A stretch of 53,453 nt of DNA from NCBI GenBank assembly GCA_902580855.1, contig CACHMF010000007.1, positions 1 to 53,453 of the forward strand, written 5' to 3'. Position numbers and translations under genes: made by a program. The DNA is from an uncultured Bacteroidota bacterium. GTDB lineage: Bacteria; Bacteroidota; Bacteroidia; Flavobacteriales; UBA7312. Each line of letters opens with the position of its first letter. The stretch's first letter is position 1. Below the pieces are notes generated by a model. The model was not told where the DNA came from. It did not search any database and saw nothing but the letters and a program-made list of their open reading frames with translations. Below, one piece after another: positions 81-38,863 of this stretch.

Positions 81-710
81 ATGAAAACAATAAATATTTT
101 TACTCTCTTAATATTATCTTTTCTGATTAATATTAATGTATTTGCATGTAAGTCATGTGGATGTAGCACTAGTAATGAATCACATACTCACTCAGAAAAA
201 TCCATAACTAAAGATGTTATTATTTCAAACAGTACTGTTAAATGGTTAGCCAAAAAAGTTACTGGTTCTCATGAAGGCAATGTATCAATCTTAGATGCTC
301 ATTTACATTTTGAAGATGATGTATTAACAGGTGGTAATATTAAGATAGACATGAATTCAATAAATTGTACTGACTTAGATGGTGAGCCAAAAGAGCAACT
401 TGAAGGTCATCTATTATCAGACGATTTTTTTGGCACTAAATATTACCCTACTGCTGAACTTGAAATCATCAAGGCAGAAAAAATTTCTACTGATTCCTAC
501 AATATAAAAGGAGTAATAGAAATAAAGGGAGTAAAGCAGAATATAGCATTCAAAGCTAATATCAAAAATGGTATTGCTAAAGCAGACCTAGTTATTGATA
601 GATCCAAGTTTAATGTGAAGTATGGTTCAGGTACTTTTTTCGAAAATCTTGGTGATAAAATGATTTATGATGAATTTAATCTTTCCGTTGTAATCGCTTT
701 CGAAATTTAA
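81..710 (+). CDS. YceI family (lipocalin-like) secreted protein with Cys-rich N-terminus
   Basis: Signal peptide followed by CKSCGC; YceI-like body (VKWLAKKVTGSHEGNV...LEGHLLSDDFFGTKYYPTAELEI...GVIEIKGVKQNI). Confidence 0.85.
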   Translation: MKTINIFTLLILSFLININVFACKSCGCSTSNESHTHSEKSITKDVIISNSTVKWLAKKVTGSHEGNVSILDAHLHFEDDVLTGGNIKIDMNSINCTDLDGEPKEQLEGHLLSDDFFGTKYYPTAELEIIKAEKISTDSYNIKGVIEIKGVKQNIAFKANIKNGIAKADLVIDRSKFNVKYGSGTFFENLGDKMIYDEFNLSVVIAFEI

Positions 711-9975: not shown

Positions 9976-11721
9976 ATGCAAAAAACAGCTGCCCCAGAAG
10001 ACCTTATAGAAGTAAAAGAAAGATTAGATGTAAAGAGCTCAGAAGACTCTTTTAAATGGCTTACAGAACATAGTAGAAATTTTTTAGCTTCAGGATACTT
10101 AGCACCTGGTGTGTCTGCTGAAGAAAGAATTCGTGAGATTGCAGAAAACGCAGAGAAGATTTTAGGAATTCCTGGCTATGCAGATAAGTTTGAACACTAT
10201 ATGTCTGAAGGGTTTTACTCTTTAGCTTCTCCGGTTTGGTCAAATTTTGGAAAAGAAAGGGGTTTGCCAATCAGTTGTTTTGGTTCTAATGTTGCAGATG
10301 ATATGGGGAATATCTTATATACCCAGTCGGAAGTTGGTATGATGTCGAAGTTAGGCGGCGGCACATCTGGTTATTTCGGAAATATTCGACATAGAGGTTC
10401 TGCAGTTAAAAATAACGGACAAGCATCTGGGGCAGTTCATATCATGCAATTATTTGAAACAATGGTAGATGTAGTAAGTCAAGGATCTGTTCGCAGAGGA
10501 AGATTTTCGCCTTACTTACCAGTAGAACATAGCGATATTGAAGAGTTCTTAGAAATTGGAACAGAAGGAAATCCAATACAAGAGTTAACACATGGCGTTA
10601 CTGTAACGGATGAGTGGATGGAGTCTATGATTGAAGGAGATCAGGAAAAGCGCGCTATATGGGCTAAGGTAATCCAAAGAAGAGGAGAAATTGGCTATCC
10701 ATATATTTTCTTCACAGACAAAGCTAATAATGGAGCACCTAAAGTATTTAAGGACAAAGGACATAAAATTGTTGCTAGTAACTTATGTACAGAAATCATG
10801 TTACCTTCTAACTCAGAGTGGTCATTTGTTTGTGTATTGTCATCGGTAAATGTATTACACTTCGATAAGTGGAAAGATACCGATGCAGTGGAAACAATGG
10901 TATTCTTCTTGGATGCGGTAATTACAGAGTTCTTAGAAAAATTAGAGCGTTATAGAGACTCAGATGATTTAGATGATCAGCAAACATTTATGTTCATGCA
11001 AAGAGCGTACAATTTTGCGAAAGATAATAGAGCACTAGGACTAGGTGTGTTAGGATGGCATTCATACTTACAATCCAAAATGTTACCATTCGATAGTCAA
11101 GAAGCATTTAATCTAAATAGCGATGTGTTTAAACACATTAAAGTAGCCTCTTACAGGGCCTCTACAGAGTTAGCAGATAAGTTTGGAGAGCCAAAAACAT
11201 TGGAAGGCTACGGTAGAAGAAATGCTACATTAAATGCGATTGCACCAACTACTTCATCAGCTTTCATTTTAGGACAGGTGTCTCAAGGTATTGAGCCTAT
11301 CTGGTCTAATATTTACGTAAAGGATATTGCTAAGGTGAAGACAACTATCAAGAATCCTTTCTTATTATCATTATTGGAAGAGAAAGGAATGAACACTCCA
11401 GAAGTATGGAAGAACATCAGAGATTATGATGGTTCTGTCCAGCACTTAGAATTTTTAACTGAAAATGAAAAAGAGGTATTTAAAACATACTCTGAAATTG
11501 ATCAGATGAGCATCATTTATCAAGCAGCAAACAGACAAAACCATATTGACCAAGGACAATCTTTGAATTTGATGGTACACCCCGATATGACTGCAAAGGA
11601 AATAAACAAGTTATATGTTACAGCTTGGAAGTTGGGTGTAAAATCACTTTACTATCAACACAGTATGAATGCTGCGCAAAAGTTCAAGCAGAATAAAGAA
11701 TGTACAAGCTGTGAAGGATAA
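9976..11721 (+). CDS. nrdA: Ribonucleoside-diphosphate reductase alpha subunit lacking an ATP-cone
   Basis: ISCFGSN, NLCTEIMLPSN, SLYYQHSMNAA, C-terminal ECTSCEG; only 581 aa, no N-terminal KRDG-type cone. Confidence 0.95.
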   Translation: MQKTAAPEDLIEVKERLDVKSSEDSFKWLTEHSRNFLASGYLAPGVSAEERIREIAENAEKILGIPGYADKFEHYMSEGFYSLASPVWSNFGKERGLPISCFGSNVADDMGNILYTQSEVGMMSKLGGGTSGYFGNIRHRGSAVKNNGQASGAVHIMQLFETMVDVVSQGSVRRGRFSPYLPVEHSDIEEFLEIGTEGNPIQELTHGVTVTDEWMESMIEGDQEKRAIWAKVIQRRGEIGYPYIFFTDKANNGAPKVFKDKGHKIVASNLCTEIMLPSNSEWSFVCVLSSVNVLHFDKWKDTDAVETMVFFLDAVITEFLEKLERYRDSDDLDDQQTFMFMQRAYNFAKDNRALGLGVLGWHSYLQSKMLPFDSQEAFNLNSDVFKHIKVASYRASTELADKFGEPKTLEGYGRRNATLNAIAPTTSSAFILGQVSQGIEPIWSNIYVKDIAKVKTTIKNPFLLSLLEEKGMNTPEVWKNIRDYDGSVQHLEFLTENEKEVFKTYSEIDQMSIIYQAANRQNHIDQGQSLNLMVHPDMTAKEINKLYVTAWKLGVKSLYYQHSMNAAQKFKQNKECTSCEG

Positions 11722-11740: not shown

Positions 11741-11775
11741 AAAATAAGCTCCGCTTAAAAAGCGGAGCTTATTTT
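11741..11775. terminator. Bidirectional terminator between nrdA and acyl-CoA dehydrogenase gene
   Basis: 16-bp perfect stem AAAATAAGCTCCGCTT-AAA-AAGCGGAGCTTATTTT between convergent genes. Confidence 0.93.
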
Positions 11776-11793: not shown

Positions 11794-12966
11794 TTATTTA
11801 AAAGCGTTTTCGCCTGTAATATCTAAACCTGTAATCAATAAATGAATATCGTGCGTCCCTTCGTAAGTAATTACTGACTCCAGGTTCATCATGTGACGCA
11901 TTATAGGATATTCTCCCGTAATTCCCATGCCGCCTAATATTTGGCGTGCTTCTCTAGTAATTTTTAAAGCCATGTCTACATTGTTACGCTTACACATTGA
12001 AATCTGAGCAGAAGTAGCCCTATCCTCATTACGCAACACACCCAAACGCCATGTAATAAATTGTGCTTTAGTGATTTCAGTAATCATTTCTGCCAATTTC
12101 TTCTGTTGTAATTGGAATCCTGCAATTGGTCTACCAAACTGCACTCGCTCTTTTGAGTAACGCAAAGCAGTATCGTAACAATCCATAGCTGCCCCGATAG
12201 CACCCCAAGCAATTCCGTAACGAGCAGAATCTAAACAACCAAGAGGTGCGCCTAAGCCATCTTTGTTAGGAAGAATATTATCTTTTGGAATCTTCACGTT
12301 GTCAAATACCAATTCTCCTGTAGCAGAAGCTCTTAAACTCCACTTGCCGTGTGTTTCTGGTGTGGTAAATCCTTCCATACCACGTTCAACAACTAGTCCT
12401 TTAATACGGCCTTCTTCGTTTTTGGCCCAAACAACAGCAATATCTGCAAATGGAGCGTTCGAAATCCACATTTTAGCTCCATTCAACAAGTAGTGGTCAC
12501 CCATGTCTTTGATATTCGTAACCATTCCTGCTGGGTTTGATCCGAAATCAGGTTCAGTCAATCCAAAACATCCTATATACTCACCAGAAGCTAATTTTGG
12601 TAAGTATTTTTGTCTTTGATCTTCATTACCATATTTCCAAATAGGATACATCACCAAAGAAGATTGAACCGAGGAAGTAGAGCGAATACCGCTATCTCCT
12701 CTTTCCAGTTCCTGCATGATTAAGCCGTAAGAAATTTGATCTAATCCAGCACCCCCATATTTAGCAGGGATGTAAGGCCCAAAGGCGCCAATCTCTGCCA
12801 AGCCATTTATAAGGTGTTTTGGAAACTCTGCCTTTTCGCAGGCATCTTCAATGATTGGTGAAACTTCACGCTTTACCCATTCTCGGGCTGCATCTCTCAC
12901 TAATTTATGCTCTTCCGTCAATAAGTCATCTAACTGAAAATAATCTGGTGCTTGAAACAAATCCAT
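11794..12966 (-). CDS. Acyl-CoA dehydrogenase, glutaryl-CoA dehydrogenase-like
   Basis: LTEPDFGSNPAGM...NGAKMWISNAPFADIAVVWA...YEGTHDIHLLITG. Confidence 0.9.
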   Translation of the reverse strand: MDLFQAPDYFQLDDLLTEEHKLVRDAAREWVKREVSPIIEDACEKAEFPKHLINGLAEIGAFGPYIPAKYGGAGLDQISYGLIMQELERGDSGIRSTSSVQSSLVMYPIWKYGNEDQRQKYLPKLASGEYIGCFGLTEPDFGSNPAGMVTNIKDMGDHYLLNGAKMWISNAPFADIAVVWAKNEEGRIKGLVVERGMEGFTTPETHGKWSLRASATGELVFDNVKIPKDNILPNKDGLGAPLGCLDSARYGIAWGAIGAAMDCYDTALRYSKERVQFGRPIAGFQLQQKKLAEMITEITKAQFITWRLGVLRNEDRATSAQISMCKRNNVDMALKITREARQILGGMGITGEYPIMRHMMNLESVITYEGTHDIHLLITGLDITGENAFK

Positions 12967-34130: not shown

Positions 34131-36902
34131 ATGGAATACAATTTCAACAACATAGAGAAAAAGTGGCAAGAGCGATGGAGAGCAGAAGGAACTTATCGAG
34201 TTTCGGAGGACAGTAGTAAAGAAAAGTTTTATGTGTTGGATATGTTTCCTTACCCTTCTGGAGCAGGTCTTCATGTAGGGCACCCTCTTGGCTATATCGC
34301 CTCTGATGTGTATGCGCGTTATATGCGTCACAAAGGATATAATGTCCTTCATCCTATGGGGTACGATTCGTTTGGGATTCCTACCGAGCAATACGCTATT
34401 GAAACCGGAATACATCCTGCTGTGGCGACAGATGAAAATGTGGCGCGTTATCGACAACAATTAGATGAAATTGGTTTTTCTTTTGATTGGAGCAGAGAGG
34501 TGCGTACTTCCAATGCCGATTATTATCGTTGGACACAGTGGATTTTCAAGCAACTATTCAATTCATACTATTGTAATATTGACGATAAGGCATTGCCCAT
34601 TTCAGATCTTATTGAAGAGCTAGAGAGAAATGGAAATGTAATGGTTAAATCTCCATGTGATGAAGACACTCCTATCTTTACAGCAGAAGAATGGAAGGCT
34701 TGGAGTGAGAAAGAGCAGCAAGCAATCTTATTGAAGTATCGTTTGGCATTTTTGTCTGATGCATGGGTAAACTGGTGTGAAGGACTAGGAACTGTATTAG
34801 CCAATGATGAGGTAAAAGATGGTGTTTCAGAAAGAGGAGGATATCCTGTAGAACAAAAGTTGATGCGTCAATGGTCGCTAAGAATTACCGCATATGCAGA
34901 GCGCTTGTTGAATGATTTAGATACGCTTGATTGGAGCGATTCCATCAAAGAGATACAGCGTAATTGGATTGGAAAATCCAAAGGTGCTTCAGTATCTTTT
35001 GCAGTAGATGAACACGATACCCACATAGAGGTGTTTACTACGCGTCCAGACACTATTTTTGGAGTTAACTTTTTGGTGTTGGCGCCGGAACATGAATTGG
35101 TGCAAAGCATTACTACAGAAGCTCAAAAAGCAGAAGTAGAATCCTATGTAAAGCAAGCTTCTATGAGGTCGGAAAGAGATCGACAATCAGATGTAAAAAA
35201 CATTAGCGGAGTTTTTACAGGGGCTCATGCTATCCATCCTTTTACAGGAGAGAAAGTAGCGATTTGGATTGGTGATTATGTATTGGCTTCTTATGGTTCA
35301 GGCGCTGTGATGGCCGTTCCTTGCGGCGACCAAAGAGATTGGGATTTTGCGCAACATTTTGGTATTGACATCATCAATATTTTCCAAGATGTAGTCGTAA
35401 GAGAAGGGGCTTGTGAAGATAAATCGGCAGTGATAGGTAATTCCGATTTTTTGAGCGGCTTATCTGTAACAGAAGCCATACAAAAAGCGATTGAGGCTAT
35501 TGAAGCAAAAGGAATTGGAAAAGGTAAAACCAATTACCGATTGCGTGACGCTATTTTTAGCAGACAACGTTATTGGGGAGAGCCATTCCCAGTATACTAT
35601 AAAGGAGAAACACCTTACTTAATAGAAGGAAACAGAGCGGTAGAACTGCCTGAAGTAGATAAGTACTTGCCTACAGAAACTGGGGAGCCACCGTTGGCAA
35701 GGGCTAAGAAAGAGGACTGGAATATGTTTGATGGTGACCGAATGGAATATAGCATAATGCCAGGTTGGGCAGGTTCTTCTTGGTATTTCTTGCGCTATAT
35801 GGATCCACAAAACGAAAACGAATTTGTATCCCGAAAAAAAGCAGATTACTGGGGACAAGTTGACCTATATATTGGGGGTGCTGAGCATGCCGTGGGTCAC
35901 CTTTTATACTCACGTTTTTGGACGAAGTTCTTGTGTGATATGCGCTTCATTGGGTTTAACGAGCCTTTCAAGAAAATGATTAACCAAGGGATGATTTTAG
36001 GTCGTTCTAACTTTGTATATCGTGTCAAGGATAGCAACACCTTTGTGACTTTCGAAAAACGCAAAGAACACAAAACAGCCCGTTTGCATGTGGATATCAA
36101 TATGGTCAATAATGATGTCTTGGACATGGAGGCTTTTAAAAAGTGGAGAAGCGAATTTGCCGATGCAGAATTTATCTTGAATGATAACGGACAATACACT
36201 TGTGGACACGAAATAGAAAAGATGTCCAAATCCAAATACAATGTGCAAACGCCAGATGACTTAATTGAGAAGTTTGGTGCCGATACCCTAAGGATGTACG
36301 AAATGTTCTTAGGTCCATTGGAGCAGTCTAAGCCATGGGACACTAAAGGGATTAACGGAGTACATAATTTCTTGCGCAAGCTTTGGCGCTTAATGCATGA
36401 TTCGGATAACAAATTTTTTGTTTCGGAAGAAATGCCTAATAAAGCCGAGCTGAAATCACTGCACAAGACCATTAAAAAAGCGTGTGAAGACATTGAGCGC
36501 TACTCTTTTAATACGGTTGTTAGCACGCTAATGATTTGTGTGAATGAACTAAACGACTTGAAGTGTAACAAGCGCACTATTATGAATGATTTGGTGATAT
36601 TACTTTCTCCTTATGCACCACATATAGCTGAGGAACTTTGGGAAAAGCTTGGACATTCTAATTCAGTGACACAGGCGACTCTTCCTGTTTTTGATGCCGC
36701 ACACTTACAAGAAGATGCCATTACTTATCCTGTTTCATTTAATGGAAAGATGCGGTTTAAAATAGAGTTGGATGCCAACTTAGGTGAAGAAGAGGTAAAA
36801 GCAGCGGTAATGGCACATGAAAAGACAGCACAATATTTAGAAGGTAAAATACCCAAGCGTGTAATTGTAGTACTTAACAAAATTGTGAATTTAGTATTAT
36901 GA
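34131..36902 (+). CDS. leuS: Leucine--tRNA ligase
   Basis: YVLDMFPYPSGAGLHVGHPLGYIASDVYARY...KMSKSKYNVQTPDDLIEKFGADTLRMYEMFLGPLEQSKPW. Confidence 0.97.
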   Translation: MEYNFNNIEKKWQERWRAEGTYRVSEDSSKEKFYVLDMFPYPSGAGLHVGHPLGYIASDVYARYMRHKGYNVLHPMGYDSFGIPTEQYAIETGIHPAVATDENVARYRQQLDEIGFSFDWSREVRTSNADYYRWTQWIFKQLFNSYYCNIDDKALPISDLIEELERNGNVMVKSPCDEDTPIFTAEEWKAWSEKEQQAILLKYRLAFLSDAWVNWCEGLGTVLANDEVKDGVSERGGYPVEQKLMRQWSLRITAYAERLLNDLDTLDWSDSIKEIQRNWIGKSKGASVSFAVDEHDTHIEVFTTRPDTIFGVNFLVLAPEHELVQSITTEAQKAEVESYVKQASMRSERDRQSDVKNISGVFTGAHAIHPFTGEKVAIWIGDYVLASYGSGAVMAVPCGDQRDWDFAQHFGIDIINIFQDVVVREGACEDKSAVIGNSDFLSGLSVTEAIQKAIEAIEAKGIGKGKTNYRLRDAIFSRQRYWGEPFPVYYKGETPYLIEGNRAVELPEVDKYLPTETGEPPLARAKKEDWNMFDGDRMEYSIMPGWAGSSWYFLRYMDPQNENEFVSRKKADYWGQVDLYIGGAEHAVGHLLYSRFWTKFLCDMRFIGFNEPFKKMINQGMILGRSNFVYRVKDSNTFVTFEKRKEHKTARLHVDINMVNNDVLDMEAFKKWRSEFADAEFILNDNGQYTCGHEIEKMSKSKYNVQTPDDLIEKFGADTLRMYEMFLGPLEQSKPWDTKGINGVHNFLRKLWRLMHDSDNKFFVSEEMPNKAELKSLHKTIKKACEDIERYSFNTVVSTLMICVNELNDLKCNKRTIMNDLVILLSPYAPHIAEELWEKLGHSNSVTQATLPVFDAAHLQEDAITYPVSFNGKMRFKIELDANLGEEEVKAAVMAHEKTAQYLEGKIPKRVIVVLNKIVNLVL

Positions 36903-36996
36903 TTTATGCTATATATAGTGCACACTTTAAAATATGATCTTATTTTATAAAAGTTAAATTGAGAAGCATCTATACTTTATCTACAGATTTTTTGCT

Positions 36997-37128
36997 TTAG
37001 CACCATATAACTACAATATTAGATCCGCCTTTTTCTTTTTCTTCCATTATAAGTTTATTTTTTTCATTAGTTTTTTGAAACCCTTTTTTAAATTTAGATT
37101 TCAGATTAACTAAACTAATGCGCATCAT
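36997..37128 (-). CDS. Candidate 43-aa small ORF downstream of SRPBCC gene
   Basis: Read by eye: MMRISLVNLKSKFKKGFQKTNEKNKLIMEEKEKGGSNIVVIWC*; same strand, 38 nt after the SRPBCC stop; no homologue known to me. Confidence 0.3.
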   Translation of the reverse strand: MMRISLVNLKSKFKKGFQKTNEKNKLIMEEKEKGGSNIVVIWC

Positions 37129-37166
37129 TTTATTTTAGAGACACAGCATGAGATACTGACTAAGTC

Positions 37167-37628
37167 CTATTTATTAAATTTCTCATCCATTACCTTGTAT
37201 CGGTAATCAAAGATATTCTTCAGTTGTTTTTTTATGAAAAAAGTATTGGCAATATCACCAACTATTCCAAAGGGGGGTATATAAGTAACAATATCAGTCA
37301 TTAAGACACCGTCATTTTGTTCTTCAAAAATGTGCTGATGATGCCACATATTGTAAGGTCCCATTCGTTGTTCATCAATAAAAAAGGATTTATCTTTTAC
37401 TTGTGTAATTTCTGTTAACCAATTCATTTTAATATTTAAAATGGGAGAAACTTCGTAGGCAATAATCATGCCAGGATACATTTTCTCAGGTAAATTTTTT
37501 GATGTAATATTAAACAACATGTAGTCGGGAGTTATCTCTTTTAGATTAGCAGGTGAAGAAGCAAAATCCCAAATAGTATCAATATCTGTTTTAAGAAATT
37601 GTTTTATTCGAAGTTGATAGTGCGACAT
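37167..37628 (-). CDS. SRPBCC family protein
   Basis: IWDFASSPANLKEITPDYMLFNITS...MGPYNMWHHQHIFEEQNDGVLMTDIVTYIPPFGIVGDIAN. Confidence 0.88.
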   Translation of the reverse strand: MSHYQLRIKQFLKTDIDTIWDFASSPANLKEITPDYMLFNITSKNLPEKMYPGMIIAYEVSPILNIKMNWLTEITQVKDKSFFIDEQRMGPYNMWHHQHIFEEQNDGVLMTDIVTYIPPFGIVGDIANTFFIKKQLKNIFDYRYKVMDEKFNK

Positions 37629-37662
37629 AATTATAAAATTGTTTTTTTTAATTGAATTATAC

Positions 37663-37698
37663 CTTTGTATAGTTTTTGTAAATAAAAACTATACAAAG
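37663..37698. promoter_or_regulatory. 15-bp perfect inverted repeat operator candidate
   Basis: CTTTGTATAGTTTTT-GTAAAT-AAAAACTATACAAAG between divergent genes; overlaps TACCTTTG (+) and TAACTTTG (-) promoter-like boxes. Confidence 0.7.
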
Positions 37699-37867
37699 TT
37701 ACATAAAACAAATCAAAATCAGTAATAGTTAATGGGACTATAATTTTAAATTAGTTTATTTAAGAATTAATCTAAAAAAAATGTGTTAAAACCCTGTCAA
37801 TAACTCCTTTTTGTAGCTTATCCATTTCATGTAAATTTTGATAAATTGCAAGTATAAATCTCAGGAC

Positions 37868-38863
37868 ATGGAATGGAGTGATGAAATTAAAGGAAAGGTA
37901 GAAAAGCTAGAGAAAAAATATGCTGCATCGGGTCAAGATTTAGGCTCTTACCTTGATGGTTTGTTGTACACTAATCCCTTACATTATTGGGACTACACCT
38001 GTATAGATACACTATTAAGCTTGCAGCATCCCAAAACTGATTTTCCTGATGAGGAAATCTTTATCATTTACCATCAAATTACAGAGTTATACTTTAAATT
38101 AGCACTAAATGAGATTGAGCAAATAGCTCACAATGGAAAAAATATTTCGAATGAAGGACAAGATTTAGGTTGGAAGAATCGTTTGGAAGTAGAATTTTTT
38201 ATCGCTCGTGTAAAGCGTATTAATAATTATTTTGAGGCGCTTTCGAAATCTTTTGGTATCATGGTACACGGCATGGAGAAAGAACAATTTTTGAAATTTC
38301 GCATGTCTTTGTTACCAGCCAGTGGGTTTCAATCGGCTCAATATCGAATGATAGAAATCTGTACAACAGACATCAATAATCTTACACAAAAAGACATTCG
38401 TGACTCTCTTAAAGGAAAGCCGATTTCAGAGCAGGCGCAGCATTTTTATTGGATGGAAGGATCGATAGAAGTCGAGACGGGTAAAAAAACCCAAATGCTA
38501 GAAAATTTCGTAAAGAAATATATGGATAAGTTTATTCAAACTGCTGAAGCATATAAGGGTAAAAACTTGTTAGCAAAATACCAATCGTTAACAGTTGAGG
38601 AGCAACAAAATGAAGTACTCATTACCGAGCTTCGTCAGTTAGATTTAAATATTAATGTTAACTGGCCATTGGTACATTATAAATCAGCTGTTCGTTATTT
38701 AAGTCAAGACAAAAATGATGTGCGTGCAACAGGAGGAACTAATTGGCAAAAGTATTTACCTCCTCGTTTTCAGAAACGCATTTTCTTTCCAGGGCTTTGG
38801 TCGGAAGAGGAACAAGAAAATTGGGGAAGACAATGGGTGTTAAACGCACTAAAAGGCGTATAA
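37868..38863 (+). CDS. Tryptophan 2,3-dioxygenase family protein (divergent)
   Basis: YTNPLHYWDYTCIDTLLSLQHPKTDFPDEEIFIIYHQITELYFKLALNEIEQI; FRMSLLPASGFQSAQYRMIE; RATGGTNWQKYLP; start at MEWSDE (37868). Confidence 0.87.
   Translation: MEWSDEIKGKVEKLEKKYAASGQDLGSYLDGLLYTNPLHYWDYTCIDTLLSLQHPKTDFPDEEIFIIYHQITELYFKLALNEIEQIAHNGKNISNEGQDLGWKNRLEVEFFIARVKRINNYFEALSKSFGIMVHGMEKEQFLKFRMSLLPASGFQSAQYRMIEICTTDINNLTQKDIRDSLKGKPISEQAQHFYWMEGSIEVETGKKTQMLENFVKKYMDKFIQTAEAYKGKNLLAKYQSLTVEEQQNEVLITELRQLDLNINVNWPLVHYKSAVRYLSQDKNDVRATGGTNWQKYLPPRFQKRIFFPGLWSEEEQENWGRQWVLNALKGV

Follow-up and report, generated by a model that had tools for sequence, protein, structure and literature searches.

A conserved inverted-repeat operator in Flavobacteriales and its probable control by a CarH/LitR-type cobalamin-sensing regulator

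The palindrome and its flanking genes

The window, i.e. the whole stretch of 53,453 nucleotides that was analyzed, carries a palindrome, here called site 2, at positions 37663-37698 between two divergent genes. To its left, a minus-strand gene (37167-37628) encodes a 153-residue SRPBCC-like protein, and to its right a plus-strand gene encodes a tryptophan-2,3-dioxygenase-like (TDO-like) protein (37868-38863 from the ATG start; the open reading frame runs from a TTG at 37838). The matches behind the SRPBCC assignment are all weak (PF03364, E=0.03; PDB 3oh8, E=0.4). The TDO-like protein matches the Trp_dioxygenase family (PF03301, 4e-21), and scores far under the NCBIfam cut-off for TDO.

Site 2 reads CTTTGTATAGTTTTT-GTAAAT-AAAAACTATACAAAG, with perfect 15-bp arms around a 6-nt loop, exactly as reported in the first-pass annotation. 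When the window was scanned in Python for perfect inverted repeats with arms of at least 15 and loops of at most 10, just two were found, and none of that size occurred in 30 simulated windows of matching dinucleotide composition. The site 2 palindrome is real and far beyond chance. The other repeat, a strong, G+C-richer 16-bp hairpin at 11741-11775 (AAAATAAGCTCCGCTT...AAGCGGAGCTTATTTT), has a terminator-like appearance, lies between open reading frames at 9976-11721 (plus strand) and 11794-12966 (minus strand), and is likely a bidirectional terminator.

A related element, site 1, is located at 45-78 and ends 2 nt before the start codon of a gene for a YceI-family protein (81-710, plus strand), its presumed target. 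The interiors of the two sites differ, but their outer arms and exact spacing are identical, which defines a core, TTTGTATA-N18-TATACAAA (37664-37697 in site 2), with the spacing found in the rest of the site family. The common arms and exact spacing uphold the earlier proposal of a symmetric operator sharing one regulator with site 1.

Promoters of the Bacteroidetes sigma-A format consist of a TAnnTTTG -7 box and a TTG at -33; in F. psychrophilum the box covers positions -12 to -5, and 5' UTRs have a median length of 24 nt (PMC9723704). At site 2 a -7 box, TACCTTTG, is present on the plus strand (37660-37667), shares its TTTG with the left arm and is preceded at a distance of 18 nt by a -33-like TTG (37639-37641, plus strand), as had been noted earlier. 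The resulting TTG-N18-TACCTTTG promoter agrees with the sigma-A format and reads rightwards to the TDO-like gene, with a predicted start at about 37672. The second -7 box, TAACTTTG, occupies 37701-37694 on the minus strand, shares its TTTG with the right arm and reads leftwards to the SRPBCC gene, with a predicted start at about 37689. This leftward box has no well-spaced TTG in the host; in relatives its place is taken by TATATTTG, in most cases with TTG-N18 upstream. The boxes had been described as pointing outward, but since the left one reads rightwards and the right one leftwards, they face inward across the palindrome. Two promoters that face each other and overlap in this way would be mutually exclusive even without a repressor.

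In eight relatives from the same family as the host, leuS, the TDO-like gene and an M23-type gene are adjacent, with the TDO-like gene directly after leuS. Within 34131-38863 of the window the order is instead leuS, SRPBCC (minus strand), operator, TDO-like gene, so that SRPBCC and the operator split leuS from the TDO-like gene. The most plausible account of this gene order is that SRPBCC, together with its operator, was inserted here in the host lineage. The host SRPBCC-like protein is 84% identical to its orthologue in one relative (G002), and the operator lies directly upstream of SRPBCC orthologues in seven genomes (G002, five further relatives and the host), in the relatives beside a litR-like MerR gene. 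The comparison with related Flavobacteriales that had been proposed as a check thus revealed strong conservation. On the other hand, the operator was found at none of the TDO-like orthologues in the 11 relatives examined. The suggestion that site 2 switches both divergent genes consequently stands for SRPBCC, its main presumed target, and is weakly supported for the TDO-like gene, whose control looks secondary and due to juxtaposition, if it exists at all. In the host lineage the TDO-like gene may now be under operator control through its canonical TTG-N18-TACCTTTG promoter, which reads across the operator.

Sites elsewhere in the host genome and in relatives

In the 1.34-Mb host assembly, which is 75% complete, there are three exact matches to the 16-base core, against about 0.003-0.008 expected. 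They are located before the YceI gene, between the SRPBCC and TDO-like genes, and upstream of a fatty-acid desaturase gene, at a distance of 5 nt. A site with one mismatch lies 37 nt before a proteorhodopsin gene that is followed by blh (PF01036, PF15461), and one with two mismatches precedes a gene for a copper-binding/fasciclin (cyanin-fasciclin) protein. Altogether nine matches with at most two mismatches were obtained, compared to three for a reversed control pattern. Two further one-mismatch sites, one at the beginning of dxs and one at a kelch-repeat gene, are doubtful as operators. The dxs site (L005:1501-1534) would be functionally in keeping with the regulon by virtue of isoprenoid precursor synthesis, but its position 9 is not A or G and no counterpart was noticed, and the kelch site overlaps the start of the open reading frame.

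The genomes of the relatives lack annotation, and their genes were named from Pfam and NCBIfam matches. In relatives, the element recurs with unchanged spacing before SRPBCC plus two flavin reductases, before cyanin-fasciclin genes and before the gene for a 293-residue MerR protein. It is also found before a photolyase FAD-domain gene with a DPRP gene next in line (one genus), and between the divergent genes for an SDR and a pterin synthase, the latter lying upstream of a CrtI-like gene. Upstream of proteorhodopsin a site-like element was present at 27-62 nt in all 13 genomes checked, from three families; eight of these elements have at most two mismatches, four have three, and one is marginal (G042, four mismatches, TGCATAA...TTATGCA).

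All 32 loci with an orthologue of the MerR gene (litR) have sites, some of these loci belonging to the same genomes as those above. The spacing of 18 was observed in 37 sites with at most one mismatch, against 0-3 sites at each other spacing from 8 to 30. As a spacing control, a search with N20 across 60 genomes produced two matches, neither of them in the host's family. Upstream of many litR genes (ten of the loci) there are two tandem operators about 30-65 bp apart, the second often with AATGTATA or a variant arm.

Two layouts of site and -7 box recur. In one, the box shares TTTG with the left arm, an arrangement favored for sites immediately next to the start codon (12/22 vs 14/72, p=0.002); in the other, the box follows 4-15 nt past the site, as in 17/33 cases for genes 18-70 nt away vs 7/61 (p=4e-5). 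Both p-values are indicative only, offsets having been pooled after inspection. The raw count of left-arm boxes (26/94) was rejected as proof of overlap, TTTG being fixed in the motif, and only the internal comparison by start-codon distance was used. Both layouts are compatible with a repressor that blocks the polymerase. Taken as sequence evidence, the data leave little doubt about the operator and its regulon, for which our literature search retrieved no description, albeit an earlier mention is possible.

A CarH/LitR-type protein as candidate regulator

A scan of 84,980 genomes yielded 32 orthologues of the 293-residue MerR protein, from marine Flavobacteriales, each with at least one site nearby, and the protein is encoded in every near-complete genome of the host's family. 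Across the order (148 genomes), an exact copy of the operator was found in 16 of 21 with the regulator (presence scored at E<=1e-80) but in only 3 of 127 without it (p=1.6e-14), and the association also holds outside the host's family (p=4e-11). The three exceptions include the incomplete genomes of the host and of G039. The regulator gene was not found in the 75%-complete host assembly; a genome of the same genus (G001) has it, and the host organism presumably does too. The one MerR gene that the host assembly did yield, a short one after an M23 peptidase, was rejected as regulator, occurring also in operator-free genomes. More distant CarH-like proteins are common in other Flavobacteriales (families f3 and f8) without an operator of the site 2 type. 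These homologues (E about 1e-50) were not counted as the same regulator, and none of six distant homologue loci contained a site.

A MerR-type N-terminal DNA-binding domain (PF13411, MerR_1) scores above cut-off in the relatives' proteins, as does B12-binding_2 (PF02607, Pfam cut-off) in four full-length ones, and PF02310 is matched weakly in one. The protein combines a cobalamin-binding four-helix bundle with a Rossmann fold; a structural model (pLDDT 87.7) was obtained, and its best PDB match is CarH by both sequence and fold. The Wx9EH motif and the cobalt-ligand (lower-ligand) histidine are conserved (W in 18/20, EH in 20/20 and His in 20/20), and G-x3-P is also kept. The place of CarH His132, next to the Trp, is occupied by Leu or Ile, which does not conform to a bis-His light state. 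The H132A variant of TtCarH does not monomerize in light; His132 is not universal, with Arg, Gln or Tyr in other light-responsive members (PMC11796333). Light release may therefore differ from that of CarH. Judged by sequence and model, the 293-residue protein qualifies as a putative CarH/LitR-type cobalamin photoreceptor, and it is likely the protein that binds the operator.

The half-site, A-nn-T-nn-ACA, coincides with the consensus for CarH, nAnnTnnACAn (PMC8156234). With CarH and class I LitR (Thermus, Bacillus megaterium, Myxococcus) the system has in common the MerR and cobalamin domains, Wx9EH, ExH and G-x3-P, the half-site, the overlap of operator and promoter, and the tie to carotenoid genes. 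However, CarH operators consist of three or four tandem 11-bp direct repeats, whereas here two outward inverted half-sites stand 24 bp apart with a fixed N18, and no conserved third or fourth half-site or internal repeat was detected within the operator. The proteins also differ in the Leu or Ile at His132 and are 15-20% identical in the structure alignment, and the regulon here includes proteorhodopsin-blh, cyanin-fasciclin and other genes.

The class II LitR proteins PplR1 and PmlR2 of Pseudomonas are repressors that likewise use an inverted pair of TRTACA-type half-sites (TRTACA-N12-TGTAYA), at -35 and downstream of the start, and control photolyase, SDR, cryptochrome and pterin genes. The targets found here match gene classes that are light-induced under LitR in Pseudomonas, i.e. 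photolyase, cryptochrome, SDR and fol genes (PMC9758184). In contrast to the PplR1 type, the half-site order is reversed and the spacer is 18, and the full-length proteins keep the Rossmann half of the B12 domain, which class II LitR lacks, relying on a LOV partner; the regulator thus falls outside class II. CarA of Myxococcus xanthus belongs to the same family, and inverted repeats were once proposed at its operator, but it lacks Wx9EH and is B12-independent, and later work favors direct repeats (PMC9304148). In four genomes of family f11 (G050, G094, G118 and G128) in-frame stops interrupt the LitR copies, leaving about 220-240 residues. The copy in G050 is devoid of the Rossmann half and has ER in place of EH, and the sites in that genome have TTTGCATA arms. 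This state resembles that of a class II LitR needing a partner sensor.

Proposed mechanism and alternatives

Site 2 is thus probably one operator of a genome-wide light-response regulon under a CarH/LitR-type MerR regulator with a cobalamin sensor. In the dark, the AdoCbl-bound regulator would hold both TATACAAA half-sites and occlude the -7 box and start site of each of the overlapping, face-to-face promoters. In light, the Co-C bond would be broken and the regulator released, permitting transcription of SRPBCC and, in the host lineage, perhaps of the TDO-like gene. The same switch would act elsewhere on proteorhodopsin-blh, on carotenoid, pterin, photolyase-like, cyanin-fasciclin, desaturase and YceI genes, and on the regulator's own gene. 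By analogy with CarH and LitR, dark repression with light release is the best mechanism, and we hold it to be true with about three parts of confidence to one of doubt.

The main competing explanation, to which we assign a small but real probability, is that the same protein binds but acts as an activator or independently of light, e.g. as a sensor of B12 or of some other ligand. Activation is common among MerR proteins, and many promoters with a site upstream of the -7 box show, by eye, no obvious -33 TTG; sites that precede the box by about 40 nt could suit an activator as well, and the overlap of -7 box and left arm is partly built in, TTTG being part of the motif. At several targets, however, the site lies right up against the start codon and on top of the predicted start site, a position awkward for an activator. 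Replacement of His132 and the loss of the full Rossmann half in the four f11 genomes with broken copies might point to light-independence, but the targets are photolyase-like, carotenoid and rhodopsin genes, and the key AdoCbl residues are kept in nearly all of the proteins. That some other regulator binds the site, with the MerR gene merely a conserved member of the regulon, is improbable. The missing gene in the host assembly and the sites in G039, which has no regulator, would fit this idea, but both these main exceptions are incomplete genomes, the co-occurrence is tight outside the host's family too, the half-site agrees with CarH, and the six distant homologue loci lack the site.

Site 2 also folds strongly as RNA (-16 to -17.5 kcal/mol), which would suit a terminator or 5'-UTR element, and a transcript-terminator hairpin had been named in the first-pass annotation as a finding that would speak against an operator. 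Yet orthologous sites fold poorly to moderately, no T-run follows the site, and only 7 of 148 non-consensus arm pairs stay complementary, as expected from base use. Since the arm sequence is fixed and varies without compensatory pairing, the element appears to be read as DNA, and we regard an RNA hairpin as very improbable. A chance palindrome is the least credible of all; the window is AT-rich, but the simulated windows produced none and the site is kept before SRPBCC in seven genomes.

With dark repression and light release as the preferred reading, we consider it slightly better than an even bet that, in several marine Flavobacteriales families, proteorhodopsin phototrophy, the synthesis of retinal and carotenoids, and photoprotection are under the direct control of a B12 photoreceptor repressor, which would use a new operator geometry, inverted and facing outward, and a light release of the non-bis-His type. 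The regulation of proteorhodopsin in marine flavobacteria has been described as unresolved (PMC3587595). The operator, its regulon and a named regulator candidate make this regulation directly testable, and the system is a good candidate for the missing light-gene switch. If true, phototrophy in the ocean would be tied to the supply of vitamin B12, and the inverted operator would extend how CarH-type proteins read DNA.
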